Positions 22,903 through 39,631 of a DNA stretch of 64,000 nucleotides are shown here, one piece after another; position 1 is the stretch's first letter; the number at the start of each line of letters is the position of its first letter. Source of the stretch: Candidatus Blautia faecipullorum. GTDB lineage: Bacteria; Bacillota; Clostridia; Lachnospirales; Lachnospiraceae. The DNA is taken from assembly GCA_019115125.1 (NCBI GenBank), contig DXEG01000051.1:19143-83142 (forward strand), read 5' to 3'. The translations under genes were made by a program, and so were the position numbers. Under the pieces are notes generated by a model. That model had not been told where the DNA came from. It did not search any database and saw only the letters and a program-made list of their open reading frames with translations.

Positions 22903-23535
22903 ATGACAAAAAAGGAACTGGCTCTGGAGGTGATCCGGAGATTAAAGGAGGAATATCCGGACGCGGGCTGTACTCTGGATTACGACCAGGCGTGGAAGCT
23001 TTTGGTAAGCGTCCGCCTGGCGGCTCAGTGTACGGACGCGAGAGTGAATGTGGTGGTGGAGGATCTTTACGCGAAATACCCGGATGTGGAAGCCCTGGCG
23101 AAGGCTGAGCCGGAGGATATTGAGGCGATTGTGAAGCCCTGCGGTCTGGGAAAGAGCAAGGCCAGAGATATCAGCGCCTGTATGAGGATCCTGCATGAGC
23201 AGTATGGGGATAATATACCAACCACCTTTGAGGAGCTTTTGAAGCTGCCCGGGGTAGGAAGAAAAAGCGCGAACCTGATCATGGGGGACGTGTTCGGGAA
23301 GCCGGCGATCGTGACAGATACACACTGTATCCGGCTCACCAACCGGATCGGGCTGGTGGATAACATCAAAGAACCCAAGAAGGTTGAAATGGCTTTGTGG
23401 AAGATCATTCCTCCTGAAGAGGGCAGCGATTTCTGCCACCGTCTTGTTTATCATGGAAGAGACGTCTGTACAGCCAGAACGGCGCCTTACTGCGATAAAT
23501 GCTGTCTGAACGATATCTGCAGGAAAAACATCTGA
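22903..23535 (+). CDS. nth: endonuclease III
   Basis: 210 residues. The helix-hairpin-helix is LLKLPGVGRKSANL with catalytic Lys121, and catalytic Asp139 is in IVTDTHCIRL. The C-terminal iron-sulfur cluster ligands are present in VCTARTAPYCDKCCLNDIC, with spacing C-x7-C-x2-C-x5-C, one residue longer in the first gap than the usual x6. It removes oxidised pyrimidines and nicks the DNA by beta-elimination. A terminator follows at 23648. Confidence 0.95.
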   Translation: MTKKELALEVIRRLKEEYPDAGCTLDYDQAWKLLVSVRLAAQCTDARVNVVVEDLYAKYPDVEALAKAEPEDIEAIVKPCGLGKSKARDISACMRILHEQYGDNIPTTFEELLKLPGVGRKSANLIMGDVFGKPAIVTDTHCIRLTNRIGLVDNIKEPKKVEMALWKIIPPEEGSDFCHRLVYHGRDVCTARTAPYCDKCCLNDICRKNI

Positions 23536-23712: not shown

Positions 23713-23728
23713 AAACAGGAATAAAATG

Positions 23729-23807: not shown

Positions 23808-23916
23808 ATTAAAATGCCATGAGACTGAAAACGGTTCGTCCTCTGGGTGCAATGACGCGGCCTGAGACAGTTTGTCTTTGGTACGCCGACGCTAAGTGAA
23901 AAAGGGAGGAATGTCT

Positions 23917-25080
23917 GTGATTATCCCAAGAAAACAAATGCAGAATATTGTAGAGGAATTAGAGGACACGATTCAGAAAAACATCAACATTATGGATGAA
24001 ACCGGCTGTATCATCGCCAGCTCGGATATGTCCCGGATAGGAACCTACCATTCCGGGGCGCAGCGGGTCATCAACCAAAGCCTCTCCGAGCTTGTGATCA
24101 GTGAAGAGGATAATTATGCCGGCGCCAAGAACGGCATTAATCTTCCGATCATCATTGAAAATGAGATAGTAGGAGTGGTGGGAATCACCGGAGAACGGGA
24201 AGAGGTTCAGATCCTTGGAAAGATCATCCAGAAAATGACCAAGATCCTGATTATGGAAAATTACCAGAACAACCAGAAGAAGGATATGGAAAACATGAGG
24301 AATAATTTCCTTTTCAGTTGGCTTTTTGCCAGTGAGGAAAACGGCGAAACAGAGGAAAACATGAAGCTCCGGGGACAGCTTCTGGGAATTGATATTAATC
24401 TGGACAGGGTGGCCGTGGTTCTGGGGGTTGTACACAAGGGAGACGGGATAAAAATTCAGGAGGCGGAGGTCGAGCAGAAGGTTTACGACAGAATTATCCG
24501 GGAAATCAACCGATGCCTGAAAAAGGACTCTCATCATCTGGTATTCCAAATAGGAATTAAGGTGATTATTTTTTTTCACAGCTCAGATATGCAGGTGATC
24601 CAGCGATCCGTCCAGGAGATCATCGACAGTGTGGAAAAGCAGTACGACTGCCGCCTTTACGGAGGCATCGGTTCTGTGGGAACCAACCGCGCGGAGATAC
24701 GCCGCTCCTACAGAGAAGCGGACACCGCCTGCAATCTGGCGCTTCGACTGAAAAACAGAAAGATTAAAATTTACTCGGATGTGGATATGGAGCTTCTCCT
24801 TGAAAATATTTCGAAGCATGACAGGGATCTTTTTGTCAAACGTGTTTTCAAGAACTGCAAGGACGGCGACATTCTCCGCTGGGTGCAGCTTCTGCGCTGC
24901 TATTCTGAGAATAATGGTTCCATCACCAAGACGGCGGAGGACTGCTATATTCATAAAAATACATTACAGTACCGATTATCAAAGCTGAAAGAAGTAACCG
25001 GATACGATCCCCGGAACATCAACGAATCCATTCCGCTTTATATTGCCATGCTGATTTACGAATTTGACCATGTGGTGTGA
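23917..25080 (+). CDS. CdaR-family (sugar diacid/PucR-type) transcriptional regulator
   Basis: 387 residues from GTG 23917, which has AGGGAGGA at 903-910 with 6-nt spacing; ATG 23911 is too close to that site. The N-terminal part (about 1-130) matches the diacid-recognition domain (QKNINIMDETGCIIASSD), a middle GGDEF-like domain follows, and the C-terminal PucR helix-turn-helix is SITKTAEDCYIHKNTLQYRLSKL. E. coli CdaR activates glycerate kinase and sugar-diacid genes; here a glycerate kinase is the first gene downstream. It probably senses the carboxylate used by the 25.4-39.1 kb cluster. A terminator separates it from that cluster. Confidence 0.88.
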   Translation: MIIPRKQMQNIVEELEDTIQKNINIMDETGCIIASSDMSRIGTYHSGAQRVINQSLSELVISEEDNYAGAKNGINLPIIIENEIVGVVGITGEREEVQILGKIIQKMTKILIMENYQNNQKKDMENMRNNFLFSWLFASEENGETEENMKLRGQLLGIDINLDRVAVVLGVVHKGDGIKIQEAEVEQKVYDRIIREINRCLKKDSHHLVFQIGIKVIIFFHSSDMQVIQRSVQEIIDSVEKQYDCRLYGGIGSVGTNRAEIRRSYREADTACNLALRLKNRKIKIYSDVDMELLLENISKHDRDLFVKRVFKNCKDGDILRWVQLLRCYSENNGSITKTAEDCYIHKNTLQYRLSKLKEVTGYDPRNINESIPLYIAMLIYEFDHVV

Positions 25081-25122
25081 CGGGGACTGCATCCATATTT
25101 AGATTATTATGATGGCTTGAAC

Positions 25123-25169: not shown

Positions 25170-25273
25170 GAAGTTTATCATATTTGGCAATGTAATTGGA
25201 ACTGCTTTTTGATGATATGGAAAAAATGTTTTTGGTGCTATATGTTTTGCACAACAAAAAAAGTAAAAATTAT

Positions 25274-25295
25274 TTGTTATACATAATATTGTTAT
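25274..25295 (+). promoter_or_regulatory. TTGTTAT direct repeats upstream of glycerate kinase
   Basis: TTGTTAT occurs at 25274-25280 and 25289-25295, a period of 15 bp, in an AT-rich region about 120-140 bp before the glycerate kinase start. This is a possible activator site for the CdaR-type protein. I could not fix a convincing -35/-10 pair here. Confidence 0.35.
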
Positions 25296-25410
25296 GCAAT
25301 TTTATTTTCTATACAATTCTAATTAGTAAAAACGCACATATAAAAGCGAAGATAGATATAAAAAGTATAAATTATATACAAAAACAAGGGAAAAGGAGGC
25401 GGGACAGACT

Positions 25411-26556
25411 GTGAAAATGTTATTGGCATCAGATTCCTATAAGGGTAGTTTAACCACTATGCAGGTGGCTGAACAGATAAAAAAAGGCGTAAAAAAAGTT
25501 TTCCCAGGAGCAGAATTTATGTGTGTTCCGGTTGCGGACGGTGGAGAGGGTACTGTAGAAACAATGATCAGTAATCTCGGAGGAGAATATCGTACTGTGG
25601 AGGTGACAGCGCCTGACGGAAGCAGGATTCAGGCGAAATACGGGATATTAAAAAACAGAATCGCAGTTATAGAGATGGCGGCGGCATCGGGGCTTCCGAT
25701 CATTCCAAAAGAAAAGAGAAATGTCATGACAGCGACAACATATGGGACAGGAGAACTGATCCGCGCCGCACTTTCAGAAGATTGTGATCAGATTTATATT
25801 GGAGTAGGCGGTTCAGCGACAAATGACGGCGGTGTAGGAATGGCTCAGGCTCTTGGATATTCTTTTCGTGATCAATATGGAAATGAAGTGGGATTTGGCG
25901 GAGGTGAGCTGATAAAAATAGCTGAAATAGATTCTTCGAAAGTTGATCCCAGACTGAAAAACAAAAAGATTATAGTAATGAGTGATGTGATCAATCCTTT
26001 ATGTGGGGAATCGGGAGCCGCGGCGATCTACGGCCCTCAAAAAGGAGCAACGCCAAGTCAGGTTCTGGAACTGGATGTGGGGCTGAAGCATTTGGCAGGA
26101 TTGATTAAAGAAAAAATGAAAATAGATCTGGAGGAATTACCGGGAGCCGGAGCGGCAGGCGGACTTGGAGCGGGCTTGGTTGCTTTTGCGGGAGCTGAAA
26201 TACGGTCTGGAATAAAAACAGTTCTGGAGCTCGCAAATTTTGAAGATAAACTGGAGTGGGCGGATATCGTAATTACTGGAGAAGGCAAAATTGATTCTCA
26301 GTCAGTTCTCGGAAAGGTGATATCCGGAATATCCCAGATGGCGAAGAAAAAGAACGTTCCGGTTATAGCTGTCTCGGGCGCTATTGAATATGGTGCTGAA
26401 ATTATTTATGAAAAAGGCGTCTCTACTATGGAAGCTGCGGTATGCAAAACCATGCAGTTGGATGAGGCTGTGAAGAATGCGGATATTTTAGTGGAAAATG
26501 CTGTGGAAAGAGTTATGAGAGCTATTCAAATCGGGCAAAGGATTGGAGAAATGTAA
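25411..26556 (+). CDS. garK: glycerate 2-kinase
   Basis: 381 residues, standard for the GarK/GlxK family. The N-terminus LLASDSYKGSLT and the motif GVGGSATNDGGVGMAQALG are diagnostic. It phosphorylates D-glycerate, normally to 2-phosphoglycerate, feeding lower glycolysis. The GTG start at 25411 follows AAAAGGAGG at 25390-25399. It heads a long AT-richer gene run and is preceded by a CdaR-type regulator, as in glucarate/galactarate systems, but no aldolase or dehydratase for sugar diacids is present. The glycerate source is therefore unclear. Confidence 0.93.
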   Translation: MKMLLASDSYKGSLTTMQVAEQIKKGVKKVFPGAEFMCVPVADGGEGTVETMISNLGGEYRTVEVTAPDGSRIQAKYGILKNRIAVIEMAAASGLPIIPKEKRNVMTATTYGTGELIRAALSEDCDQIYIGVGGSATNDGGVGMAQALGYSFRDQYGNEVGFGGGELIKIAEIDSSKVDPRLKNKKIIVMSDVINPLCGESGAAAIYGPQKGATPSQVLELDVGLKHLAGLIKEKMKIDLEELPGAGAAGGLGAGLVAFAGAEIRSGIKTVLELANFEDKLEWADIVITGEGKIDSQSVLGKVISGISQMAKKKNVPVIAVSGAIEYGAEIIYEKGVSTMEAAVCKTMQLDEAVKNADILVENAVERVMRAIQIGQRIGEM

Positions 26557-26649
26557 TCTGGGAATACCATATTTCCAGAAAAACCAGATTTTGTGTTTGT
26601 CTTTTTATTAATTTTGATTGATATACAGTTTGCCGGGAGATGAGACAGA

Positions 26650-28215
26650 ATGAAGACAGATAGAATCTATGAGAACCTTTATGATGCACTGAAAAACTCG
26701 GCCGAAAGATATCCGGATAAAATCGCGGTTATTCAGGAAAAGCAGTCTATTACATATCAAAAGCTATTGGAAAGAACAGATAAGGCAGCTCTGTGGCTTA
26801 AAACAAATTTTGCTGTAAAGAAAGGCGAAAGAGTTGGGCTCTTATTTGTGAACAGTATTGATTTTTATATTGCGTTTTATGCAGTCATGAAACTGGGAGC
26901 TATTGCTGTTCTGGTGAATACGAAAATGCAAAGTGAAGAAATTGCATTTGTACTAAAAGACACAAAAACACATTGCCTGATCATGAATACACGTTGGATT
27001 GAGAAGGTAAAGAAGATTTTACCAGAGATAAAAGTGGATCGTATTCTGACGGACAGAAAGGAAGAGATAGATTGTGATGAAGTAAAGATATTTTCTATGG
27101 AAGAAATATTCCGCAGCGAGAATATCTGTATGGGCTGTAATTGTGCAAGTGTACAGGCGGATGAGCTGACAGCAGTGATCCTGCATACTTCTGGCACTAC
27201 CGGAAATCCCAAGGGAATTATGGTATCACATAAGAATATTATGGGCACAGCCTATGGCTATAAAGAGGCTCTCCGTGTAACAGCGGATGATATTACGGTT
27301 CTCTCTGTCCCGGTCTTTCATATTTTAGGTTTAAGCTGTGTTTCAAATTTATTTTTTTACATTGGCGGAACTATTGTAGTATTTGAAAAATTTGAGGCAA
27401 ATAAGGTTCTGGAGGCCATTGAAAAATACCATGGTACACATTTTCATTCTGTACCTGCTGTTTATATAAAATTGATGAATGAGGCGGCAAGACATTATGA
27501 TCTGGACTCTCTGCGTATAGCTGTATGCGGAGGTGCTTTGATCAGCCAGGAAGATAAAGAAAGATTTTATGAGATGGCGCCAAGGGCTTCCTTTCGGATA
27601 GCATATGGACTTACAGAAACCGCCGGTTCCGGAGTTTTATCTTACCGCCATGGCGATCCGGGCAGGGAAGTGTTTAACTGTAAAGTTCAGATTCAGGACG
27701 AAAATGGCAGAGTTTTGGATTATGGCGAAGGAGAAGCTTTGTGCAGTGGAAATATAGTGACTACGAAAATCTGGGGACGGGAAGACACTGAACATGAGGT
27801 ACTCCATACGGGAGATATTATACGGAAAGAAAAAGATGGAAGTATTTTTATTTTAGACAGAATAAAGGATGTTATAAACAGAGGCGGTGAGAAACTGTTT
27901 CCATCTTTTATTGAAAATGTTTTGACTCAATACCCGGGAATTCAACAGGCGGCAGTATTTCCTGTGGGAGATGAAATTTATGGAGAAGTACCGGCAGCCG
28001 TAATTGTATTAGATGATGGAAAAGAGATAGAGATAAAAAAATTAAATATATATCTTCAGGAAAAGCTTGGAAAATTTGAGATTCCGCAGTATATCGAAAT
28101 ATGGAATGGGAGTGTAATTCCAGTTACTGGGAATGGGAAAGTAAAAAAGAGAGAATTAAGAAATATTTTTGAACAAAAGCTTGCAGATAAAGGAGAAAAG
28201 AATGAGAAAACCTGA
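26650..28215 (+). CDS. acyl-CoA synthetase (AMP-forming, class I ANL)
   Basis: 521 residues. The P-loop-like motif is ILHTSGTTGNPKGI, the ANL core YGLTETAGSG, the hinge/ribose motif GDIIRKEKDGSIFILDR with DRIKDVINRGGEKLFP, and the catalytic lysine PVTGNGKVKKRE. It activates a carboxylic acid to its CoA thioester. Together with the Liv-type importer and the CoA-transferase it gives two ways to form the CoA ester in this cluster. Chain length is not readable. Its end overlaps the next start by 14 bp. Confidence 0.9.
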   Translation: MKTDRIYENLYDALKNSAERYPDKIAVIQEKQSITYQKLLERTDKAALWLKTNFAVKKGERVGLLFVNSIDFYIAFYAVMKLGAIAVLVNTKMQSEEIAFVLKDTKTHCLIMNTRWIEKVKKILPEIKVDRILTDRKEEIDCDEVKIFSMEEIFRSENICMGCNCASVQADELTAVILHTSGTTGNPKGIMVSHKNIMGTAYGYKEALRVTADDITVLSVPVFHILGLSCVSNLFFYIGGTIVVFEKFEANKVLEAIEKYHGTHFHSVPAVYIKLMNEAARHYDLDSLRIAVCGGALISQEDKERFYEMAPRASFRIAYGLTETAGSGVLSYRHGDPGREVFNCKVQIQDENGRVLDYGEGEALCSGNIVTTKIWGREDTEHEVLHTGDIIRKEKDGSIFILDRIKDVINRGGEKLFPSFIENVLTQYPGIQQAAVFPVGDEIYGEVPAAVIVLDDGKEIEIKKLNIYLQEKLGKFEIPQYIEIWNGSVIPVTGNGKVKKRELRNIFEQKLADKGEKNEKT

Positions 28216-29788
28216 GTTTATTACGGCAAAAGAGGCAGTGGACAGAATTAAAAGCGGCAGCACGATATGTACGATCGGAATGACACTGGTATCTGCCTGT
28301 GAATCTATTTTGAAAGAACTGGAAAATCGTTTCCTGGAAACCGGCAGTCCGAATCAGCTTACATATGTACATACCTGCGGACAATCTGATAGAAAAGCGG
28401 GGGCTGTGTACCATATGGCGCACGAGGGACTTACAAAAAGAATTATTGGCGGTCACTGGGGACTTTGCCCCAAAATGATGGAGCTTATTTCTGAGAACAA
28501 AGTAGAGGCATATAATCTGCCGCAGGGACAGATGGCCAATATGTTTCACAGCATGGCGCTGAGGGAACCTGGAAAAATCAGTAAAATCGGTCTTGGTACA
28601 TTTATTGATCCCAGAATTGAAGGGGGAAAAATGAATGACAGAACCAAGCCCCTGGAAGATATTGTAGACGTAATAGAAATTGATGGAGAGGAGTATCTGC
28701 GTTATCGGGAGATTCCTATTGACACTTTATTGATCAGAGGAACTTATGCTGATGAAAATGGAAATATTTCCACGTCGGAAGAAGCTATGGTGTTAGAACT
28801 TCTTCCTGCGGTTATGGCTACTAAAAGGTTTGGGGGACAGGTTATCTGTCAAGTGAAACAGACAGTAAAAGCGGGAACTCTTAGTCCAAAGGAAGTGATT
28901 GTACCTGGGGTACTGGTAGACGCGGTGGTGGTATGTGAGGAACCGGAAGTGAATCACAGACAGACATCTTCCTGGTATTATGATCCGACATACAGCGGAC
29001 AGGCGTGGGCTCCGGAATCTAAAACAGATCCGATACCTCTGAATGTGCGGAAAGTAATCGGAAGAAGAGCAATGATGGAATTGGAACCTGACGTAGTGAT
29101 CAATGTAGGAACAGGAATTCCGAATGATGTAATCGGAGCGATTATTGCCGAAGAGAATATTTCGAGTGATGTGACTATTACTGTGGAATCGGGAATATAC
29201 GGCGGAGTTCCGGCAGGAGGGATTGATTTTGGAATCTCCAGGAACGCACAGGCTTTGGTACCCCATGACAGACAATTTGAATATTACAATGGAGCGGGAA
29301 TTGATTTTACATTTATGGGCGCCGGAGAAATGGATGAAAAGGGTAATGTAAACGCTACCCGAATGGGGGACAAAGCTCCTGGAGCGGGAGGCTTTATTGA
29401 CATTACTGCCCGCGCGAAAAATGTGATTTTCTGCTCGACTTTTACCGGAAAAGGTTTGAAGGTGGAGTTTGATGAAGAGGGGCTTCGAATCATTCAAGAG
29501 GGGAAGATCCGTAAAATGGTCAAAAAAGTGCAGCAGATCTCTTATAATGGGGAAATTGCGGGAAAAATGCAGCAGAACATGGTGTATGTAACAGAACGCG
29601 CTGTATTCAGACTTACTCCGGAAGGACCGATGCTGGTAGAAATCGCCAAGGGAATTGATCTTCAGAAAGATGTTCTGGATCAGATGGACTTTAAGCCAAT
29701 TATTGCAGATGATCTCAAAATTACAGATACCCGGATCTATTTAGAAAAGTGGGCCGGGTTGAAGGAGATAATACAAAATAAAAGATAG
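28202..29788 (+). CDS. acyl-CoA:carboxylate CoA-transferase (type I, fused alpha-beta)
   Basis: 528 residues from ATG 28202, preceded by AAAGGAGAAAAG. The fused A and B halves are typical of YdiF / propionate CoA-transferase-like enzymes. The catalytic glutamate is Glu329 in [14 protein letters not shown], where the CoA adduct forms. It swaps CoA between acyl-CoA and acetate or another acid, saving ATP. Overlap with the ligase gene indicates a shared operon. The exact acid is unknown. Confidence 0.92.
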
Positions 29789-29799
29789 GAGGTAAAGAG

Positions 29800-30651
29800 A
29801 TGAATGTAAGCAAAGTGATGGTTGTGGGAGCTGGAATTATGGGTAGCGGCATTGCTCAGGTATGTATAGAACACGGTATCCAGACAGTTCTCACAGACAT
29901 TTCACAGGAACTGGCAGACAAAGGAAAAGCTAAGATTGATCATTTTCTTCAGAGAAAAATTGAAAAAGGGAAAATTTCCCAGGAGCAAAAAGATCAGGCC
30001 ATGGCGCTTCTGTCAACTGCCGGTGATTATAAAGCCGGTTCAGATGCCGATTTTGTAATCGAAGCAGCAACAGAAAATGTTCCGATTAAACTTAAAATTT
30101 TTGAGCAGTTAGATGAGATTATGCAGGAAACAGCTATTCTTGCCACGAATACATCTACCATCTCTATCACGAAAATAGCAGGAGCAACAAAGCATCCTGA
30201 CCGTGTAATTGGAACACACTTTTTTGTTCCGCCGCCTGCAATGAAGCTTCTTGAGATTATTCCGGGAATTCTTACCAGCGGCGAGACAGAGAAAACAGCA
30301 TTTGAATTTGCGGAGAAAATTGGAAAAACGGCAATCAAAGCGCCAGATACATCCGGTTTTCTTGTAAACCGTATGTTGGTTCCTATGCAGAACGAAGCTA
30401 TTTTTCTGGTAATGGAAGGAAATGATCCTAAGGATGTCGATCAGTCTATGAAATTGGGAGCTAATTTCCCTATGGGGCCATTGGAATTAACTGATTTTGC
30501 AGGACTCGATACAGTGCTGGCCGTAATGACACAGATGTATGAGGATCTGGGGGATCCCAAATACAGGCCGTGTCCGCTTCTGAAAAAGATGGTAAATGCA
30601 CATTTATTGGGAAGAAAGTCAGGAAAAGGTTTTTACGACTATACAAAATAA
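29800..30651 (+). CDS. hbd: 3-hydroxyacyl-CoA dehydrogenase (Hbd-like)
   Basis: 283 residues, the size of clostridial 3-hydroxybutyryl-CoA dehydrogenase. The Rossmann motif is [13 protein letters not shown], catalytic His140 is in [13 protein letters not shown], and the conserved Asn is in SGFLVNRML. The usual Asn after THFF is Val here. It oxidises an (S)-3-hydroxyacyl-CoA with NAD, or runs in reverse. It is 11 bp after the CoA-transferase stop with AGGAGG at the junction. Confidence 0.9.
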
Positions 30652-30666
30652 AAAGGAGGGTTACTT

Positions 30667-31935
30667 ATGAAGTGTAGAAAAATAATTGCAGGGTTAATGG
30701 CAGGTGTGTTGGCAAGTATGTCCCTTGTTTCTGTTGTTTCGGCAGAGGCTGAGGATGATCCGATTAAGGTGGGATGTGTATTTCCCATTACAGGAAACAA
30801 TGCGGACCAGGGTGTATTTAATGTAGATGGATGCCAGTTTGCTATTGATTATATTAACGATAATGGCGGAATCAAATCTCTTGGCGGAAGAAAACTGGAA
30901 CTTGTCAGCTATGACAATCAGTCGGATGCAGACCAGTCTAAAGCGGCCGCAGAGCGTCTGATCAATGAAAATCCTGATATTGTAGCTGTAACAGGCGCTG
31001 CTTCAAGCTCATTTGTACTTCCGATGCTTCCTGTGTTTGAGAAAAACAGTATGCCGTTTTTGACAGCGCAGGTGTCAGAATCCATTACAAATCAGGGTTA
31101 TCAGTATGTATTCCGGTTTGGCTCTACGGGCGGCAGCTTTTCAGAGTATCAAGTGAAATTCCTGGATTGGCTGAACGAGGAATATGGCCTTGGAATTTCC
31201 AAGATTGGTATTATATATGAGGATACAGAGTATGGCATTTCCAATACAGAGGGAGCGGTTGCGGCAATTGAAGAGTCGGCGGAAAACGGCTCCGGACTGG
31301 AAATCGCATATAATGAATCGTTTACAGCAGGTTCTTCTGACCTTACAAACATTGTTGTGGGTCTGAAGCAGGCTGGCTGCGAAGTTGTATTTCCTACCTG
31401 CTATACACAGGATGCAAAGCTTCTCTTTAATACGATGAAAAGCATGAATTACAATCCTCTGATCATTGGCGGTGGCGGCGGTTTCCTGTATCCGGCTTTT
31501 GGAGAGGAGCTGGGAGATCTTGTTGACGGCGTTGTATCTGTTACCGGGCATAACTATGATATTCAGACAATTACAAATAACGAAGAGATTGCAAATATCG
31601 GAGAACAGTTTGAAGAAGAGTATGGATATTTTATGCCGGAGCAGAGTGCATCTGCATTCAGTGCGATTTATCTGATCGCGCAGGCGCTGGAAAATGCGGC
31701 GTCTACCGACCATGATGCGGTTGCTGGAGCGCTTAGGGAGCTTACCTGTCTGGCAGCAACTCCGGGCGGAGAGGTTGCTTTCGATGAAACAGGAGCAAAC
31801 GTTAATGCGCATGCGGTAATTGTACAGTGGCAGAAGGGAGAAGATGATGTTTACAGGACACGCTGTGTATTCCCGGATGATGAAGCTGGTGCGGAATTTC
31901 AGATGACCGAAGACTTAGAGGCGATGCAGAAGTAA
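30667..31935 (+). CDS. Liv-type ABC transporter substrate-binding protein
   Basis: 422 residues. The signal peptide MKCRKIIAGLMAGVL...VVSA ends at an Ala-Glu junction with no lipobox Cys. The mature part has the family signature of branched-chain amino acid-type receptors: IKVGCVFPITGNNADQG, and the Ser/Thr-rich ligand loop VTGAASSSFVLPML. Members bind amino acids, aromatic acids, amides or short organic acids. Being surrounded by CoA-ester genes suggests a carboxylate ligand. A perfect hairpin follows the stop. Confidence 0.9.
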   Translation: MKCRKIIAGLMAGVLASMSLVSVVSAEAEDDPIKVGCVFPITGNNADQGVFNVDGCQFAIDYINDNGGIKSLGGRKLELVSYDNQSDADQSKAAAERLINENPDIVAVTGAASSSFVLPMLPVFEKNSMPFLTAQVSESITNQGYQYVFRFGSTGGSFSEYQVKFLDWLNEEYGLGISKIGIIYEDTEYGISNTEGAVAAIEESAENGSGLEIAYNESFTAGSSDLTNIVVGLKQAGCEVVFPTCYTQDAKLLFNTMKSMNYNPLIIGGGGGFLYPAFGEELGDLVDGVVSVTGHNYDIQTITNNEEIANIGEQFEEEYGYFMPEQSASAFSAIYLIAQALENAASTDHDAVAGALRELTCLAATPGGEVAFDETGANVNAHAVIVQWQKGEDDVYRTRCVFPDDEAGAEFQMTEDLEAMQK

Positions 31936-31951
31936 GCCAATATAGGATTTC

Positions 31952-31988
31952 ATACGGGATGTATTGTTTTATGTAATACATCCCGTAT
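31952..31988 (+). terminator. 14-bp perfect hairpin between binding protein and permease genes
   Basis: ATACGGGATGTATT (31952-31965) pairs perfectly with 31975-31988 around a 9-nt loop and has no T-run. Hairpins at this place often stabilise the binding-protein mRNA and reduce read-through, giving excess receptor over permease. Confidence 0.7.
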
Positions 31989-32008
31989 TACATAAAGGAG
32001 GTTACTAC

Positions 32009-32884
32009 ATGACTTGGGTATTTTTTCAGTCCCTGATCAGCGGCATACTTGCCGGAGGTGTATATGCATTATTCGGCGTAGGTATTACAATCATCTTCGG
32101 CGTTATGAAAATGGTTGATTTTTCCGCCTGTGCACAGTTGGTATGGGGAATGTATTTTACATATCTGTTCTATTCCTGGACAGGCCTGAACTGTTATTGG
32201 GCGATCCCCTTCGTGGTAATTTGTATGGGGCTTCTGGCCTGGATCATTTTTAAACTGATTGTCAGGCCGTTGATCGGTTCTGACGATACATCGTTTATTC
32301 TCGTAACATTGGGGCTATCTTATTTCCTCCAGAATCTCGCAGAATTTGCGTTTGGAGCAGATCCCAAATCCGTACCATCGGATATTAAAACATCTTCTAT
32401 TATTATTGGAGATTACAGCATTGGCCTTCCAAGACTGATTGCGTTTATAGCTATGGTAATTCTGGTCTTAGGCGTATATTTGCTTTTGAATAAAACTACT
32501 TTAGGACGGGCAATGAGAGCTACATCTGAAAAAAGAGAAGTTGCGCAGATGCTTGGGATTAATACGAAAAAAACATTTACAATCGCATTTATGATTGGCG
32601 TTGTTTTTGCAGGCTTGTCAGGTCTGTTGATCACACCCATATATTATGTAACTCCTACAGCAGGCGCCATGTTCCGTACCACTGCATATATTGCGGTTAT
32701 TATCGGCGGTCTTGGAGATATCAAAGGCGCATTGGTCGGCGGACTTGCAGTGGGAATTATCGAAGCTCTTGTGACGGGTATGATTTCTAATGATCTTGGC
32801 CCGGTTGGTGTCTGTGTGGCACTTCTGATCGTTCTCTATCTGAGACCACAGGGATTCTTCGGGAAAGGAGAAAGACAGGCATGA
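32009..32884 (+). CDS. Liv-type ABC transporter permease (LivH-like)
   Basis: 291 residues from ATG 32009, with AAAGGAGG just upstream; an earlier in-frame start would include the hairpin. Eight or nine hydrophobic segments, opening with QSLISGILAGGVYALFGVGI as in LivH, and the ATPase-docking loop RATSEKREVAQMLGIN. It forms the membrane channel with the next gene, which its stop overlaps by four bases. Confidence 0.92.
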   Translation: MTWVFFQSLISGILAGGVYALFGVGITIIFGVMKMVDFSACAQLVWGMYFTYLFYSWTGLNCYWAIPFVVICMGLLAWIIFKLIVRPLIGSDDTSFILVTLGLSYFLQNLAEFAFGADPKSVPSDIKTSSIIIGDYSIGLPRLIAFIAMVILVLGVYLLLNKTTLGRAMRATSEKREVAQMLGINTKKTFTIAFMIGVVFAGLSGLLITPIYYVTPTAGAMFRTTAYIAVIIGGLGDIKGALVGGLAVGIIEALVTGMISNDLGPVGVCVALLIVLYLRPQGFFGKGERQA

Positions 32885-33879
32885 ATAAATTTTTATCGAA
32901 GAAATACATTCCGGCTTATGTGCTGCTGGTGATTTTTCTGCTGATTCCTGCAGTGACATCTGGAAACTATATTATATCCAATCTTGTAAACTGTATGTTT
33001 TTTGCATCTATGGCAGGCTGTTGGAATATCATCGGCGGTTATGGAGGGCAGGTTTCCTGGTGTCACGCATCCTTTGTAGCTATGGGAGCATATGCAAACT
33101 TTATTATGAGTACGGAATTAGGACTTTCTCCTTTTATTTCTCTTCCGATGGGAATGGCTATTGCAGTGCTTATTGCTACAGTTATCGGATATTCTACATT
33201 CAGGCTCCATGGCCCCTATTTTTCCATTGCGACAATCGCCTGCGGAGAAGCTATCCGTGTGTTGATACAGCATTTTGATACGGTGACGAAAGGAGCGGCA
33301 GGAATTTATGTTACATATAGAAAACCGGATTTCTGGGCGCTGACCTTTGAGAATGATATTCCATTTTATTATATTGCTCTGGTGATCACATTGCTGATGG
33401 TACTGGTAACCTATATATTTACAAAGTCTAAGACCGGTTACTATTTAAGCGCGATTAAGGGAGATGAAACTGCGGCGGAATCTCTCGGGATTGAAACTTT
33501 CAAAATTAAATTGAGAGCGTTTCAGGTAAGCGCTATGATGGCAGCGGTTGTGGGATGTTTTTATGCCTCTTTCCTGACATATATTGCGCCAACCAGTACG
33601 GCGAGCTTTGATTTGTCCATGAAAATCGGTGTAGTGGCTATTGTAGGCGGCGTGGCAAGTCTTTGGGGACCTGTAATTGGTGGATTCGTTGTAATTCTTT
33701 TGATTGAAGCTACCAGTGTCTTGTTTGGATCAGCAGGCGGAAGCCAGATGGTTTACGGAATTCTTTTGATGGTTGTGATTATTTTCAAACCAGAAGGGAT
33801 CATTGGATTTTTCCGAAAGGATAATACCGTTAATAAAAAATCCGGTCTGCGTTTCCGGAGGAAGAAGGAGGGAGCATAA
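32881..33879 (+). CDS. Liv-type ABC transporter permease (LivM-like)
   Basis: 332 residues with the LivM segment GGYGGQVSWCHASFVAMGAY and docking loop AIKGDETAAESLGI. The ATG overlaps the previous TGA and its own stop overlaps the next ATG, so permease and ATPase are translationally coupled. The basic C-terminal tail (SGLRFRRKK) is cytoplasmic. Confidence 0.92.
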   Translation: MNKFLSKKYIPAYVLLVIFLLIPAVTSGNYIISNLVNCMFFASMAGCWNIIGGYGGQVSWCHASFVAMGAYANFIMSTELGLSPFISLPMGMAIAVLIATVIGYSTFRLHGPYFSIATIACGEAIRVLIQHFDTVTKGAAGIYVTYRKPDFWALTFENDIPFYYIALVITLLMVLVTYIFTKSKTGYYLSAIKGDETAAESLGIETFKIKLRAFQVSAMMAAVVGCFYASFLTYIAPTSTASFDLSMKIGVVAIVGGVASLWGPVIGGFVVILLIEATSVLFGSAGGSQMVYGILLMVVIIFKPEGIIGFFRKDNTVNKKSGLRFRRKKEGA

Positions 33880-34613
33880 TGGGAAAACTGTTAGAGGTGA
33901 AAGATCTGTCGATTTCCTTCGGTGGTATTAAAGCGGTTCAGGATTTGAATTTTCATATTGATAAAGGAGAAGTGCTTGCTCTAATCGGGCCGAATGGATC
34001 CGGCAAATCGACGACAGTCAATATGATATCAGGTGTTTATATACAAAATAAAGGAACCATCACTTTTGACGGAAAGGAAATCCAGCCGAAGATGAGTATT
34101 GCCCAGAGGGCTAAAATGGGGATATCAAGGACATTTCAAACTCCAAAACCGTTTGCTCATCTTACTGTATACGATAATATCTATACAATCGCACTGCAGC
34201 AGAATTCTAAGGCTCAGGCGGCTGAACTGACAGATGAAATTTTAAATCTTACAAAATTGTATGACCTTCGCGAAACAAAAAGCGGAAAATTATCCATTGA
34301 GAAACGCAAATGGATGGATCTTGCGCGTTGTATGGCTACTAAACCTAAAATTATTATGATGGATGAGGTTATGGCAGGACTGAACCCCTCGGAGATGGAA
34401 TCGAGTCTGGATCTGGTTAGGACAATCAATAAGGAAGGGATTACTGTACTGTTTATTGAACATGTTATGAAAGCCGTAGTATCTGTATGTACGAGAGCGA
34501 TCGTGCTGAATCAGGGCAAACTGCTTTGTGAAGGGGAACCTAGAGAAGTTTTGAATAATCCGGATGTAGTTGCCGCGTATCTGGGAGGTGAATCAAATGT
34601 TGCTGGAAATTAA
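33879..34613 (+). CDS. Liv-type ABC transporter ATPase (LivG-like)
   Basis: 244 residues. Walker A is GPNGSGKST and Walker B is KIIMMDEVMAGLNP. The signature region reads KLSIEKRKWMDLARCMA instead of the canonical LSxGQ, a divergence seen in some Liv-type ATPases. It powers uptake together with the next gene. RBS GAAGAAGGAGGG lies in the end of the LivM gene. Confidence 0.92.
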   Translation: MGKLLEVKDLSISFGGIKAVQDLNFHIDKGEVLALIGPNGSGKSTTVNMISGVYIQNKGTITFDGKEIQPKMSIAQRAKMGISRTFQTPKPFAHLTVYDNIYTIALQQNSKAQAAELTDEILNLTKLYDLRETKSGKLSIEKRKWMDLARCMATKPKIIMMDEVMAGLNPSEMESSLDLVRTINKEGITVLFIEHVMKAVVSVCTRAIVLNQGKLLCEGEPREVLNNPDVVAAYLGGESNVAGN

Positions 34614-35304
34614 AGATTTATGTGCAGGATACGGCGACCTTCAGGTCCTTTTCAATATTTCGATGAAAGTGAACGAGGGGGAGGTTGTGTCTCTGGTCGG
34701 CTCAAATGGAGCCGGAAAAACAACACTGCTTCGTATTTTATCCGGATTAGAGCCTGTAAAATCAGGCAGTATTCTGTATCAGGGACAGGATCTGACCAAA
34801 ATTAAACCATATGAAAAGGCGGATCATGGAATTGCGCACATTCCACAGGGAAGAGGTATTTTAGGAAGCCTGACAGTGAAAGAGAATCTTGTGATGGGAG
34901 CGTATCCCAAGGCAGCCCGCGCCGCTATGGATAAAAATATCGAAAAGTCATTTGAAATGTTTCCTATTTTGAAAGAACGCCAGAATCAGATGGCCGGTTC
35001 TCTAAGCGGTGGAGAACAGCAGATGCTGGCTATAGCAAGAGCTCTTATGATCAGTCCTAAGCTTTTAATGCTGGATGAACCATCTCTTGGACTTGCGCCC
35101 ATTGTAGTTAAAGATATGTTTGATATTATTTCAAATGTAGCGAAGCAGGGCGTTAGTATTTTGATTGTGGAACAGAACCTGAATCAGGCTTTGTCTGTAG
35201 CCGACAGAGGATATGTACTGGAAACAGGACAGATTGTTATGGAGGGGAAAGCGTCGGATCTTCTGGCTAATGAGGAAATCCAGGCAGCTTATCTTGGAAT
35301 ATAA
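34597..35304 (+). CDS. Liv-type ABC transporter ATPase (LivF-like)
   Basis: 235 residues from ATG 34597, preceded by GGGAGGTGAATC inside the previous gene. Walker A GSNGAGKTT, canonical signature SLSGGEQQML, Walker B LLMLDEPSLGLAP. As LivF has a canonical signature and LivG does not, the two ATP sites of the heterodimer are probably unequal. Overlaps the LivG gene by 17 bp. Confidence 0.93.
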   Translation: MLLEIKDLCAGYGDLQVLFNISMKVNEGEVVSLVGSNGAGKTTLLRILSGLEPVKSGSILYQGQDLTKIKPYEKADHGIAHIPQGRGILGSLTVKENLVMGAYPKAARAAMDKNIEKSFEMFPILKERQNQMAGSLSGGEQQMLAIARALMISPKLLMLDEPSLGLAPIVVKDMFDIISNVAKQGVSILIVEQNLNQALSVADRGYVLETGQIVMEGKASDLLANEEIQAAYLGI

Positions 35305-35341
35305 CAGTGCCGGATAATACGCCGGGGTATGGGGGAATGGT

Positions 35342-36301
35342 ATGAAGAATGAAATACAGGCGGCAGTGATTGGAGCTGGGATGATCGGTCTTAGCATGTG
35401 CGCGCTGCTGACAGGAAATGGAATAAAAACAAAACTGTATGTGCGGAGAGATCCCTTAAAACGAAAAGAACAATATAAGGGAGTTATGGATGATCTGGCA
35501 GAACAGAAACTATTGCCCTCAGACGCAGGTTCAAAATGCAGTTCTTATTTAAAAGTGGTAACCTCCTATGAGGAGTTGCAGAATGTTGAGGTGGTTTTTG
35601 AGTGCGCCTCTGAAGAGCTGGGAATAAAACAAAAGATTTACAGCGATTTGCTGGAACATTGTCCATTTCTGAAGGTGATTGCTTCAACCACCTCTGCAAT
35701 TCCATCAGAAGAGCTGGCGAAAGGAACATGCTCACCGGAAAAAATAGTTGTCGCACATCCTTTTTATCCGCCTCATTTGATTCCCTGTGTGGAAGTGATT
35801 CCTAACCGGTATACTTCAGATGGCACATTGAACAGTCTTATGGAACTGCTTAGATATTTAGGCAGGAAACCAGTACTGCTTAAAAGGGATGCCAGAGGAT
35901 TTGTGGCAAACAGGCTGCAGTACGCTATGCTCAGAGAAGCGGTACATATTGTGGAGGAAGGGATTGCACGGCCGGAAGATGTAGACGAGATTTTAATGTA
36001 CAGCTTTGCTCCAAGATATACCTCTATAGGAATTTTTGAGCATTTTGATAATTGCGGGCTTGATCTGACCGGTAAGATATGTAAAGACCTATATCCGGAT
36101 TTATCACGCGAAACAGAAGTGCAGGAGCTTGTACAGAAGCATTGCAGAAGCGGTGAATACGGAGTCAAGACCGAAAAAGGAATTTATGATTGGAAGGAAA
36201 AGAATATTTCAGAATTTCGGTTCAGAATAAGAGAACCTTATTTGAAATATTTTTCATGGCGGCTTCCGGAGAAAGAATGTAACTGGGAGGAAACACAATG
36301 A
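35342..36301 (+). CDS. 3-hydroxyacyl-CoA dehydrogenase-family protein, lambda-crystallin-like
   Basis: 319 residues. Rossmann start AVIGAGMIGLSM; the catalytic His139 lies in VVAHPFYPPHLIPCVEV, which resembles the HPxNPPxxIPLVE motif of L-gulonate 3-dehydrogenase, lambda-crystallin and L-carnitine dehydrogenase rather than the THFFNP of Hbd. The C-terminal domain has GFVANRLQYA. It may thus oxidise a free 3-hydroxy acid instead of a CoA ester. It differs clearly from the Hbd-like protein of the same cluster. It overlaps the VOC gene by four bases. Confidence 0.82.
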   Translation: MKNEIQAAVIGAGMIGLSMCALLTGNGIKTKLYVRRDPLKRKEQYKGVMDDLAEQKLLPSDAGSKCSSYLKVVTSYEELQNVEVVFECASEELGIKQKIYSDLLEHCPFLKVIASTTSAIPSEELAKGTCSPEKIVVAHPFYPPHLIPCVEVIPNRYTSDGTLNSLMELLRYLGRKPVLLKRDARGFVANRLQYAMLREAVHIVEEGIARPEDVDEILMYSFAPRYTSIGIFEHFDNCGLDLTGKICKDLYPDLSRETEVQELVQKHCRSGEYGVKTEKGIYDWKEKNISEFRFRIREPYLKYFSWRLPEKECNWEETQ

Positions 36302-36696
36302 AACCAATGAGACTTCATCATGTGGGAATTATACTGCTTTCTATGCAAAAAGCAGAGGAATTTATGGAACAATTTGGATTGGAAAAAGATTACATGGAAT
36401 ATGTAGAGGCATATCATGCATATTGCCTGTTTACAAAATATGGTGAAAATGAATCCCCCATTGAATTGATTATCCCGACAGAAGGCGTACTGACAGAATT
36501 CAGAAATGGTAAAGGCGGACTGCACCATATTGCTTTTGAGGTGGAGGATGTAGAAAAGGCACGTCAGGAATTTGAGGAAAAAGGCTTGGAAATGCTGGAA
36601 AAAACTGCGGTCCCCGGAGCTGGAGGAATTATTGTAAACTTTTTGAGACCAAGATTCGGCTTTGGAGTCCTGGTGGAGTTTGTGCAACAGAAATAA
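36298..36696 (+). CDS. VOC-family protein, methylmalonyl-CoA epimerase-like
   Basis: 132 residues with two beta-alpha-beta-beta-beta modules. The N-terminal metal-ligand His is in RLHHVGIILLS and another is in GGLHHIAFEVED, plus the Glu in VLVEFVQ, matching methylmalonyl-CoA epimerase. Such enzymes invert an acidic carbon next to a thioester. No mutase or carboxylase gene is nearby, so the substrate may be a different alpha-branched acyl-CoA. Translationally coupled to the upstream dehydrogenase. Confidence 0.8.
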   Translation: MKPMRLHHVGIILLSMQKAEEFMEQFGLEKDYMEYVEAYHAYCLFTKYGENESPIELIIPTEGVLTEFRNGKGGLHHIAFEVEDVEKARQEFEEKGLEMLEKTAVPGAGGIIVNFLRPRFGFGVLVEFVQQK

Positions 36697-36717
36697 AGAG
36701 CAGCAGGAGGTGTTGTT

Positions 36718-37911
36718 ATGAGTGAATTTAAGGATGTAGTGATCGTAAGTGGATGCAGGACTGCCGTAGGTTCTTATGGAGGAAGCCTGAAGGGGGTTTC
36801 CGCTATTGATATGGGAGCCCTGGTTGTGAAAGAAGCCGTAAAAAGGGCGGGTATTCAGCCGTCTGATGTGGATGAGGTGATTATTGGACAGGTGGGACAG
36901 ATTGCCGAATGTGGATTTGTGGCCAGAGCGATCAGCCTGAAAGCGGGGATGCCTAAAGAGACAACCGCATATTCTGTAAACCGCCAATGTGGCTCCAGTC
37001 TTCAGGCTATAGCAGATGCGGTTATGGAAATTCAGACGGGCTTTGCCGATGTAGTGGTTGCCGGCGGTTCGGAGAATATTTCCCAGCTTCCCTATTATGT
37101 AAAAGAGGCTCGGTGGGGCGCAAGAATGGGGCATAAGACGTTTGAAGATGGTGTAATCGACATTCTTACCTGGCCATTGGACGGCAACCATAATGGAGTC
37201 ACCGCTGAAAATGTAGCAAATACATATCATGTTTCCAGAGAGGAGCAGGATGCCTTTGCTATGCAGAGTCATCAGAGAGCGTGTGATGCTATTAAGGCGG
37301 GGAAATTTAAGGAAGAAATTGTCCCGGTGGAACTGAAGGATCGTAAAGGAAACGTTATTATTTTTGATACTGACGAGGGACCGAGAGAGGGACAGACGAT
37401 GGAAAAACTTGCGAGACTTCGGCCCTGTTTTGTAAAAGACGGAACTGTTACGGCGGGAAATTCCTCCAGTCTGAACGATGCGGCAGCAGCAGTTGTAGTA
37501 ATGTCGAGGGAAAAAGCGGAAGAGCTTGGTGTGGTTCCTAAACTTTGTATTAAAGGATATGCTGTGGCCGGGTTCGATGCGGAGCTTATGGGATATTCTC
37601 CAAAACTTTCGAGTGAGAAATTAGCCAGACAGTTGGGGGTTGAACTGTGTGACGTTGACATGATTGAGATCAATGAAGCGTTTGCCAGTCAGGCGGTAGC
37701 TGTTATCAGAGATTTAGGGCTTGATATAAATAAAGTAAACATTTATGGCGGAGGAATTTCAATAGGGCATCCAATTGGTGCAACAGGATGTATTTTAACC
37801 GTAAAAGTGATGTATGAGCTGATGAGAACGGAAAAGAGAAATGCGATGATCAGCATGTGTATTGGCGGAGGTCAGGGTATTTCTATGTATTTTGAGAAAT
37901 GTGAGGGATGA
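36718..37911 (+). CDS. thiolase (acetyl-CoA C-acyltransferase), copy 1
   Basis: 397 residues. Catalytic Cys91 in SVNRQCGSSLQA, NEAFASQAV, the GHPIGATG histidine and the C-terminal Cys in SMCIGGGQG are all present, so it should be active. It cleaves a 3-oxoacyl-CoA with CoA, or condenses in reverse. AGCAGGAGGTG precedes the ATG. It is a close paralogue of the next gene and overlaps its start region. Confidence 0.93.
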   Translation: MSEFKDVVIVSGCRTAVGSYGGSLKGVSAIDMGALVVKEAVKRAGIQPSDVDEVIIGQVGQIAECGFVARAISLKAGMPKETTAYSVNRQCGSSLQAIADAVMEIQTGFADVVVAGGSENISQLPYYVKEARWGARMGHKTFEDGVIDILTWPLDGNHNGVTAENVANTYHVSREEQDAFAMQSHQRACDAIKAGKFKEEIVPVELKDRKGNVIIFDTDEGPREGQTMEKLARLRPCFVKDGTVTAGNSSSLNDAAAAVVVMSREKAEELGVVPKLCIKGYAVAGFDAELMGYSPKLSSEKLARQLGVELCDVDMIEINEAFASQAVAVIRDLGLDINKVNIYGGGISIGHPIGATGCILTVKVMYELMRTEKRNAMISMCIGGGQGISMYFEKCEG

Positions 37912-37913
37912 TC

Positions 37914-39098
37914 ATGAAGGAAAGCATTGTAATTATGTCTGGAGCCAGAACGGCTATTGGAAGTTTTGGAGGCTCTCTGAAAGATCTGGAAGCTACAGAT
38001 TTAGGGGGGATTGCAATCAAAGAAGCCTTAAAGCGCGCTCAAGTAGCTCCTGAAGATGTAGATGAAGTAGTAATGGGATGTGTGGGGCAGGCCGCAGAGA
38101 ACGCATTTATGGCAAGAGTTAGTTCTATAAAAGCAGGAATACCTTATGAGGCCACTGCTTTAACTGTAAACCGTTTATGTTCATCTGGATTACAGGCCAT
38201 TGTAACAGCGGCCATGGAAATCGATAATGGATTTTGTGAAATTGCTGTTGCCGGCGGTGGTGAGAGTATGGATAATATTCCTTATTATCTCCGAAAAGCA
38301 AGAAGAGGATACCGGATGGGACATGCGGAGCTGGAAGACGGGCTTGTAACAGCACTTTCTGATCCGATTACCAGAGACCATATGGGAATTACAGCGGAAA
38401 ATATAGCAGAGCGCTATCAGATTTCCCGGGAGGATCAGGATGCGTATGCTTTGATGAGTCAGCAGAGGGCTGCCAAAGCCAGGGATGAGGGCAGATTTAA
38501 AGATGAAATTATTCCTGTAGAAGTAAAAGTAAATAAAAAAGAAACAAAGATTTTTGATACGGACGAACATATCAGAGATAATACTACATTAGAAAAGCTC
38601 GCAAAACTTCGGCCGGCTTTCAAAAAAGATGGTACGGTAACGGCAGGCAACGCATCAGGAATTAATGACTGTGGCGCGGCGGTAGTTTTAATGAAGGAAG
38701 AAGAGGCAAAGCGCCGTGGACGCAAACCTATTGTCCGTATTGTTGATTTTGCCGCGGCGGGAGTAGATCCTGCATATATGGGAATTGGTCCGGTTCCTGC
38801 TGTACGGAAGCTGCTGAAAAAAACAGGGCTTACATTGGATGATATTGGGCTGATTGAATTAAATGAAGCATTTGCAAGCCAATCCCTGGCCTGTATCAGG
38901 GAACTTGGGCTGGATATGGAAAAAGTAAATGTGAACGGCAGCGGAATTTCCATGGGACATCCAATTGGCGCTACCGGATGTATTATTACTATAAAATTGA
39001 TGAATGAAATGGTTCGGCGTCAGGTGAAATATGGAATTGCAACCCTATGCATTGGCGGGGGCCAGGGTTTAGCGGTGCTTTTTGAGCGGTGTGAGTGA
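37914..39098 (+). CDS. thiolase (acetyl-CoA C-acyltransferase), copy 2
   Basis: 394 residues from ATG 37914, which has GAGGG at 37903-37907; an ATG at 37908 overlaps this site. Catalytic Cys89 in VNRLCSSGLQ, NEAFASQ, GHPIGATG and LCIGGGQG are intact. It parallels the previous gene throughout but differs around the acyl pocket (LCSSG versus QCGSS, YMGIGP versus LMGYSP), suggesting different chain or branch preference. Last gene of the AT-richer run. Confidence 0.93.
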   Translation: MKESIVIMSGARTAIGSFGGSLKDLEATDLGGIAIKEALKRAQVAPEDVDEVVMGCVGQAAENAFMARVSSIKAGIPYEATALTVNRLCSSGLQAIVTAAMEIDNGFCEIAVAGGGESMDNIPYYLRKARRGYRMGHAELEDGLVTALSDPITRDHMGITAENIAERYQISREDQDAYALMSQQRAAKARDEGRFKDEIIPVEVKVNKKETKIFDTDEHIRDNTTLEKLAKLRPAFKKDGTVTAGNASGINDCGAAVVLMKEEEAKRRGRKPIVRIVDFAAAGVDPAYMGIGPVPAVRKLLKKTGLTLDDIGLIELNEAFASQSLACIRELGLDMEKVNVNGSGISMGHPIGATGCIITIKLMNEMVRRQVKYGIATLCIGGGQGLAVLFERCE

Positions 39099-39154
39099 AA
39101 GCCTTATGTACAGGATATAAACAGGCCCTGACAGGCCGGGAAAGTGGTGATTAT

Positions 39155-39628
39155 ATGCGCAGACAAAAATATGTGGAGGATTCCCGCACAGAAAATACCT
39201 ATCTTATCATGCCAAAGCACATCAACGGGTACGGCAGGCTGTTCGGCGGAGTTCTGATGCAGTGGATTGACGAGGTGGCGGGCACCGTGGCCCGCCGCCA
39301 CGCGGGCAGCATAGTGACCACAGCCTGTGTGGACAACCTGAATTTCAAAGCGGGAGCCTATCTGGGTAATACGATCGTCCTCATTGGAAAAATGACCTAT
39401 GTGGGAAAAACCTCCATGGAAGTCAGAGTGGATACTTATGTGGAAGACATGGACGGAACCCGGAAGATCATCAACAGAGCCTATGAGGTGCTGGTGGCCA
39501 TTGATCAGGATAACAACAAGCTGGAGGTTCCTGGGCTGGCCGTGGAGACAGAGTCGGAAAAGGCCGAATGGATCGGCGGTGAAAAACGTTATGCACTGCG
39601 GAAGCAGAGACGCAGAGAAGGATACTGA
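39155..39628 (+). CDS. acyl-CoA thioesterase (hotdog fold)
   Basis: 157 residues from ATG 39155, preceded by AAGTGGTGAT. The YciA-like hotdog core has GRLFGGVLMQWIDEVAG with the Asp/Glu of the active site and an HAGSIVTTACVDNLNF strand. It hydrolyses acyl-CoA. Its codon use is GC-richer than the preceding cluster, so it may be the first resident gene beyond the cluster border instead of a member of it. A terminator follows. Confidence 0.87.
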   Translation: MRRQKYVEDSRTENTYLIMPKHINGYGRLFGGVLMQWIDEVAGTVARRHAGSIVTTACVDNLNFKAGAYLGNTIVLIGKMTYVGKTSMEVRVDTYVEDMDGTRKIINRAYEVLVAIDQDNNKLEVPGLAVETESEKAEWIGGEKRYALRKQRRREGY

Positions 39629-39631
39629 CAG

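Follow-up and report, generated by a model that had tools for sequence, protein, structure and literature searches.

The 64,000-nucleotide window analysed here, part of contig C29 in the 3.5-Mb assembly of Candidatus Blautia faecipullorum (completeness 97.28%), carries thirteen open reading frames (ORFs) on the forward strand (25411–39098) that we read, with a probability of about 0.68, as a variant of the acyl-coenzyme A (acyl-CoA) route of 2-deoxy-pentonate (deoxyribonate) catabolism. The encoded proteins probably import a small sugar acid related to 2-deoxyribonate, tie it to CoA and split it into acetyl-CoA and glycerate; judged from sequence, the substrate is most likely a 2-deoxy-pentonate, perhaps a stereoisomer other than 2-deoxy-D-ribonate. 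The route itself is known in outline; the variant seen here has 3-hydroxyacyl-CoA dehydrogenases of the HAD type, an import system of the Liv type, two thiolases and an epimerase-like VOC protein.

Deoxyribonate, which human urine contains, may originate both in oxidised DNA and in metabolism, and the acyl-CoA route has been shown genetically in one bacterium, Klebsiella michiganensis (PMC6365646). Here the same core turns up in Lachnospiraceae, Blautia-like ones among them, and in spirochaetes; it also takes a second form, with an epimerase-like protein and a thiolase clade of its own. Loci otherwise read as stray beta-oxidation genes can now be given a likely annotation, and single enzymes are at hand for substrate tests, as are named strains that carry variants of the cluster, Anaerobium acetethylicum GluBS11 (L091) and Lactonifactor longoviformis DSM 17459 (L111).

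Relation to the Klebsiella deoxyribonate cluster

According to Price et al. 2019, mutant fitness data mark the K. michiganensis M5al cluster (BWI76_RS23695–RS23730) as needed for growth on deoxyribonate (PMC6365646). It consists of CoA-synthetase, CoA-transferase, beta-hydroxyacyl-CoA dehydrogenase, thiolase, lactonase, two MFS carriers and glycerate kinase, and the scheme proposed there leads from deoxyribonyl-CoA through 3-keto-deoxyribonyl-CoA to glyceryl-CoA and acetyl-CoA, glyceryl-CoA then giving glycerate and 2-phosphoglycerate (PMC6365646). The paper demonstrates the need for the genes and offers the chemistry as a proposal, the cleavage being without direct demonstration (PMC6365646); the glyceryl-CoA hydrolase is called unknown by the authors of GapMind (PMC9007349). 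In three further papers (PMC11300592, PMC8632339, PMC10754987), Price et al. appears merely in the reference lists. The scheme uses the core set found in the window and accounts for the glycerate kinase as well as for the missing dehydrogenation and hydration. An earlier note on this DNA had proposed an imported acid that already carries a 3-hydroxy or 3-oxo group and may also yield glycerate; an acid with a 3-hydroxy group that gives glycerate is how the same core enzymes are explained in K. michiganensis. The note's remark that it knew of no described pathway with this exact set is not supported for the core, which is described in that source, and the VOC protein, the second thiolase, the second HAD protein and the Liv importer are not in the cluster as given there (PMC6365646).

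Within a plasmid collection, a protein search with the window CoA-transferase returned its best matches in Klebsiella (55.6% identity). The Klebsiella locus runs ligase, CoA-transferase, short-chain dehydrogenase/reductase (SDR), thiolase, MFS, lactonase, MFS, glycerate kinase and CdaR-type regulator, the order implied by the locus tags RS23695–RS23730; the copies compared are those of K. pneumoniae and K. oxytoca rather than of M5al itself. Shared with the K. michiganensis route are a CoA-synthetase (at the level of the superfamily), a single-chain CoA-transferase of the same clade, a 3-hydroxyacyl-CoA dehydrogenase step, a thiolase (in the clade of window thiolase 1) and a glycerate kinase, and a CdaR-type regulator is common to the window and the K. 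pneumoniae and K. oxytoca loci. Identity to the Klebsiella counterparts is 54.8% for thiolase 1, 54.4% for thiolase 2 and 38.7% for the glycerate kinase. Among the Klebsiella-type loci, L079 has an insertion sequence element between the thiolase and MFS genes, the cluster of K. pneumoniae ATCC 13883 (L164) ends within the second MFS gene with no later kinase or regulator match, and the record behind L078 (CP125156.1, 5.37 Mb), filed as a K. pneumoniae plasmid, looks chromosomal from its size.

Other known systems are more distant. The oxidative route of Pseudomonas simiae and Burkholderia relatives has the same proposed end (glyceryl-CoA to glycerate to 2-phosphoglycerate, glycerate kinase being needed) but oxidises the free acid and relies on a beta-keto acid cleavage enzyme (PMC6365646); no such cleavage enzyme is found among the window cluster genes. 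The E. coli ydiF-ydiO-ydiQRST-fadK region encodes a homologous CoA-transferase, but beside acyl-CoA dehydrogenase, electron-transfer-flavoprotein-like genes and fadK.

Glycerate kinase and thiolase clades in related loci

In a genome scan, the core recurs in related loci. These were taken by similarity of their CoA-transferase to the window alignment, the best 80 of 114 being used (3.2 to 21.6 kb each), and gene presence was called by identity thresholds that we set. They come from Lachnospiraceae, other Bacillota, spirochaetes and Pseudomonadota, including K. oxytoca and K. pneumoniae. As controls, 22 loci with paralogous CoA-transferases (41–48% identical) were picked by hand from the same bacterial family, one per genome, and their tallies were entered by hand. 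A CoA-transferase tree of 108 rows, covering 77 of the 80 loci, places the window and Klebsiella in one clade of 80, with YdiF and all 22 controls outside (SH-aLRT 99; a quick method, with long branches among the outgroup rows). A quick thiolase tree of 77 rows divides the 73 cluster thiolases, which represent 67 of the 80 loci plus the window, L021 and L078, into a clade of 55 that holds Klebsiella and window thiolase 1 (SH-aLRT 99) and a clade of 18 that holds window thiolase 2.

Glycerate kinase is associated with this family and is missing from the controls. A GlxK-type kinase occurs in 28/80 loci, on the CoA-transferase strand in 26 of them, and a MOFRL-type protein, which we take to belong to another glycerate kinase family, occurs in L096 and L104, making 30/80; neither type occurs in the 22 controls (Fisher p 3e-4). 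L096 resembles the window in having HAD1, HAD2, VOC, thiolase 2 and a Liv importer, and its non-homologous MOFRL kinase lies directly after HAD2. With the 20 Pseudomonadota loci removed, GlxK remains in 15/60 (p 0.008), or 17 with MOFRL included. The association is present in all three thiolase groups (5/16, 8/36 and 15/23 loci), and in the thiolase-2 group it persists without the three loci of the window's own genus (4/13 vs 0/22, p 0.014). Loci of at least 20 kb (n = 55) have a kinase in 27 cases. Acyl-CoA dehydrogenase is found in 1/80 related loci vs 8/22 controls (Fisher p 1e-5), and crotonase in 7/80 vs 10/22 (p 2e-4). Missing enzymes that lie beside the cluster in relatives would, by the earlier note, have told against its proposal, and mostly they are not there. 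MaoC-type hydratase homologues were seen near 9/80 loci (L098, L101, L106, L108, L111, L119, L135, L145 and L154), some of which also have crotonase; these clusters may handle other acids.

Several points weigh against the deoxyribonate assignment or set the window apart from Klebsiella. HAD-type enzymes stand in the window for the Klebsiella SDR, and a Liv ABC importer for its two MFS carriers; SDR and lactonase are missing from the window cluster, which in turn has the VOC protein, a second HAD and the second thiolase clade. Lactonase and MFS genes are absent among the window genes from 23896 to 39628, and the rest of the genome was not searched for them. The window CoA-synthetase belongs to the same superfamily as the Klebsiella ligase but is only 27.6% identical to it, and the regulators are 23.3% identical. 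Because no glycerate kinase was found in 50/80 loci, nor in 28 of the 55 loci of at least 20 kb, various 3-hydroxy acids may be substrates across the wider family. The view is limited in 25/80 loci, which are shorter than 20 kb and ended by contig ends, and the Fisher values ignore shared ancestry.

The alternative that survives best, although we consider it unlikely, keeps the CoA route and changes the acid: another 3-hydroxy or polyhydroxy acid (3,4-dihydroxybutyrate, a 2-deoxy-hexonate or 3-hydroxybutyrate) would be degraded, and the kinase would serve a separate glycerate or glucarate supply, being there since CdaR–kinase pairs are common. The partial occurrence of the kinase (30/80) agrees with this, as do importers and ligases that differ among relatives at the same site, which suggests changing substrates, and a gene order headed by regulator and kinase, with 93 bp between the end of the kinase gene and the start of the ligase gene. 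The genome also has a second GlxK-type glycerate kinase elsewhere (G000:C5:32556-33665; two in total). An independent role for the kinase is harder to square with its association with all three thiolase groups, its placement on the CoA-transferase strand in 26 of 28 cases and the non-homologous kinase in L096 and L104, and we prefer the deoxyribonate route.

Proposed route and its stereochemistry

On the deoxyribonate reading, the Liv importer would take up an acid of the 3,4,5-trihydroxy-pentanoate type, and its CoA ester would be formed by the synthetase with ATP or, once CoA esters exist, by the CoA-transferase. HAD1, perhaps with HAD2, would oxidise the 3-hydroxyl to a 3-ketone, and thiolase 1, thiolase 2 or both would cleave the 3-oxoacyl-CoA with CoA to acetyl-CoA and glyceryl-CoA. 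Glycerate would be released from glyceryl-CoA by the CoA-transferase (or a thioesterase) and converted to 2-phosphoglycerate by glycerate kinase. Such a route needs neither desaturation nor hydration, because the hydroxyl is already on the substrate. CoA-transferase Glu329 aligns with YdiF Glu333, and both thiolases retain the Cys, GHP and CxGGGxG motifs, residues with catalytic roles in these families. Searches of the PDB with the CoA-transferase, VOC, HAD2 and LivK proteins identified their families and indicated no substrate. The genome has two full-length Thiolase_N matches, both of them the cluster thiolases, and two partial ones on contig C54.

No FabG-type SDR 3-hydroxyacyl-CoA dehydrogenase is present in the window cluster, where HAD1 and HAD2 are found instead. 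An SDR encoded elsewhere in the genome was considered as its replacement and rejected, since the best match (51%) lies between the two partial Thiolase_N matches on C54 and reads as the FabG of fatty-acid synthesis. Over the 80 loci, SDR occurs alone in 47, with HAD in 19 and HAD alone in nine, neither being in view in five. HAD enzymes act on L-(S)-3-hydroxyacyl-CoA and FabG-type SDRs on D-(R)-3-hydroxyacyl-CoA; the exchange of SDR and HAD may therefore mean opposite configurations at C3. HAD2, whose best structure matches are 4om8 and 3ado, has homologues in 3/80 related loci. Three genomes of the window's genus, G002, G030 and G049 (L023, L022 and L024), encode HAD2-like proteins that are 38–40% identical, with weak ABC-ATPase matches as the only other cluster genes in view.

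The VOC protein is tied to thiolase 2. It stands beside 15/16 thiolase-2 loci vs 0/59 others (Fisher p 7e-15), five loci without a typed thiolase being left out, of which L097 and L102 have VOC. Typing was by best BLAST hit, and the tree confirmed 16/16 thiolase-2 loci and 51/59 others, the remaining 8 lying outside it. Because VOC presence needs only 3 changes on the thiolase tree, this p value overstates independence, and the protein is not exclusive to such loci: a VOC homologue (48%) also lies close to the CoA-transferase of L171, one control out of 22. Both thiolase types occur together, as in the window, only in L085 among the 80. L146 (JAJQEA010000171.1) has two adjacent thiolases in one cluster, which both belong to the thiolase-1 type and are 75% and 76% identical to that enzyme of the window. 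Positions His8, Glu56, His77 and Glu127 of the VOC protein, presumably the metal-ligand positions of VOC epimerases, are retained in at least 18 of 19 aligned rows. The match to the VOC homologue of L089 (~11609–11900) is split in two, as though its reading frame were broken. A VOC protein encoded in the Klebsiella region, after fucP and before the ligase, did not match that of the window at E 1e-5.

We consider it most likely that HAD2, VOC and thiolase 2 handle another stereoisomer, VOC inverting the carbon beside a carbonyl or thioester; this may be the carbon that becomes C2 of glycerate. A more detailed scheme is offered tentatively, as one possibility that falls well short of even odds. 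The clusters would form a modular stereoisomer kit in which those with SDR read a D-3-hydroxyl (2-deoxy-D-ribonate, Klebsiella), those with HAD alone an L-3-hydroxyl and those with both enzymes either one. VOC and thiolase 2 would handle the L configuration at C4, where VOC would act as an undescribed epimerase on glyceryl-CoA or on a 4-hydroxy-3-oxoacyl-CoA, and the window, with two thiolases, would use more than one isomer.

A different use for VOC is implied by the suggestion in the earlier note that the acid is alpha-branched and 3-hydroxylated, such as 2-methyl-3-hydroxybutyrate, with VOC epimerising 2-methyl-3-oxoacyl-CoA. BktB-like thiolases can accept alpha-branched chains, and VOC, tied to thiolase 2, resembles methylmalonyl-CoA epimerase in fold family and in the four metal-ligand positions. 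Its score is nonetheless below the family cut-off (TIGR03081, 70.9 vs 114.95 bits), and position 37, which we take to lie near the second catalytic Glu of true methylmalonyl-CoA epimerases, is not conserved across the aligned rows. Propionyl-CoA would be formed, yet a methylmalonyl-CoA mutase to process it is absent from the genome, and glycerate kinase is left unexplained. The suggestion has thus become very improbable, and the deoxyribonate route is retained.

Steps absent from the genome

That the cluster has no dehydrogenation or hydration step was stated in the earlier note for the cluster itself, and the whole assembly bears out more than was claimed. Crotonase (ECH_1, PF00378) has 0 matches in it, compared with matches in 13/14 control genomes, and acyl-CoA dehydrogenase (Acyl-CoA_dh_1, PF00441) has 0 matches, compared with 9/14. 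Fatty-acid beta-oxidation by these two enzymes thus fails genome-wide; MaoC-type hydratases were not searched for at this scale. In an assembly of such completeness, the reading of the cluster as part of a beta-oxidation or butyrate pathway whose missing enzymes lie elsewhere can practically be set aside, even though HAD1 and the thiolases belong to enzyme types that such pathways use, the more so as acyl-CoA dehydrogenase accompanies a single one of the 80 related loci.

Importer

The binding protein lacks, by alignment, the amine-binding acid of branched-chain amino acid binders. Glu226 of the leucine/isoleucine/valine-binding protein LIV-BP, which we take to be the acidic residue that holds the amino group of the ligand, is replaced by Gly in the window protein and its five closest aligned relatives; Glu occurs at this position in 0/21 aligned relatives and Asp in one (L136). 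A binding protein limited to branched-chain amino acids, which the earlier note had named as an outcome that would tell against its proposal, is therefore not what the sequence suggests. Other related loci have carriers of the TRAP, GntP or MFS type close to the core. Carrier type was considered as support for a sugar acid and dropped: GntP-type permeases are found near 5/80 related loci vs 6/22 controls, so that carrier type is uninformative on the substrate.

Locus layout and insertion site

All thirteen ORFs (Table 1) were present on re-reading. Count, strand and families agree with the earlier note, whose description of them as mostly overlapping does not hold, as overlaps occur at 6 of the 12 junctions and gaps of at most 93 bp at the remaining 6; the CdaR-type regulator that it placed ahead of the cluster carries the expected domains. 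The transcription unit may extend to the 4HBT thioesterase gene, after which the first-ranked terminator-like hairpin is found (39632–39653; 24 such sites vs a shuffle mean of 12.4). A promoter scan did no better than shuffles (41 found vs mean 35.3, sd 5.7). G+C content is 43.3% in the cluster stretch vs 49% on both sides.

Table 1. Genes of the cluster and its borders in the window
Feature	Position	Strand	Remarks
nth, presumably endonuclease III (family resemblance)	22903..23535	+	left flank of insertion site; shared by relatives with and without the cluster
CdaR-type regulator, sugar diacid recognition domain	23896..25080	+	PF05651/PF17853/PF13556
glycerate kinase, GlxK/GarK family	25411..26556	+	TIGR00045 463.6 bits; PF02595 476.8 bits
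acyl-CoA synthetase (AMP-forming)	26650..28215	+	PF00501 256 bits; proposed activator of imported acid
single-chain CoA-transferase, YdiF/FadX type	28202..29788	+	ORF opens 28169; YdiF structure 2ahu, E 4.3e-119
3-hydroxyacyl-CoA dehydrogenase HAD1, PRK05808 type	29800..30651	+	377.1 bits, model cut-off of 408 not reached
Liv-type solute-binding protein	30667..31935	+	nearest solved structure 8wch, E 9.7e-38
Liv permease, LivH type	31964..32884	+	
Liv permease, LivM type	32881..33879	+	
ABC ATPase, LivG type	33879..34613	+	
ABC ATPase, LivF type	34597..35304	+	
HAD2, lambda-crystallin/FHMPC-dehydrogenase-like	35342..36301	+	PRK06129, FHMPC_DH ~171 bits, both below cut-offs
VOC protein, epimerase-like	36298..36696	+	TIGR03081 70.9 bits, cut-off 114.95
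thiolase 1, BktB-like	36718..37911	+	clade of Klebsiella deoxyribonate-cluster thiolase
thiolase 2, BktB-like	37908..39098	+	sister clade, tied to VOC
4HBT thioesterase	39095/39152..39628	+	PF03061; downstream of thiolase 2

The insertion site lies between nth and the thioesterase gene (window 22903–40920), with yfcE as a further right flank. In cluster-free L222, the order is nth, thioesterase gene, yfcE; L221 and L223, also cluster-free, have the thioesterase gene after nth and show no yfcE match in the stretch in view. In L225, nth lies directly before yfcE, and in L226 the two are separated by 3.7 kb without a cluster-gene match. The thioesterase was tried as the missing glyceryl-CoA hydrolase and dropped as evidence for the route, because its gene directly follows nth in cluster-free L221, L222 and L223 and is an older resident of the site. 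Homologues are found near 11/80 related loci, and the enzyme may have been recruited as an accessory.

Among relatives in the same genus, G052 (L029; outside the census) has regulator, kinase, HAD1, CoA-transferase and VOC, with several genes between the last two; downstream (L227, G052:C5) it has an SDR followed by the two thiolases, which are neighbours (79.8% and 90.6% identical to those of the window). This content fits the link between VOC and thiolase 2, and the two-thiolase form thus exists with SDR too. L085 is the same contig as G059 (L021), with which the window is syntenic (59–93% identity). The cluster occupies the nth/yfcE site in the window and in G019 (L224/L027) and, by its right flank, the same site in G025 (L028) and G059 (L021, without the thioesterase). 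G019 and G025 have a variant with SDR, a different Liv set and a different ligase, and their CoA-transferase, VOC and thiolase 2, together with CdaR in G019, are 74–88% identical to those of the window; the CdaR-type regulator is 80–88% identical in cluster-bearing relatives of the window's genus. A single site, nth/yfcE, thus holds a core whose genes for import and activation can be exchanged.

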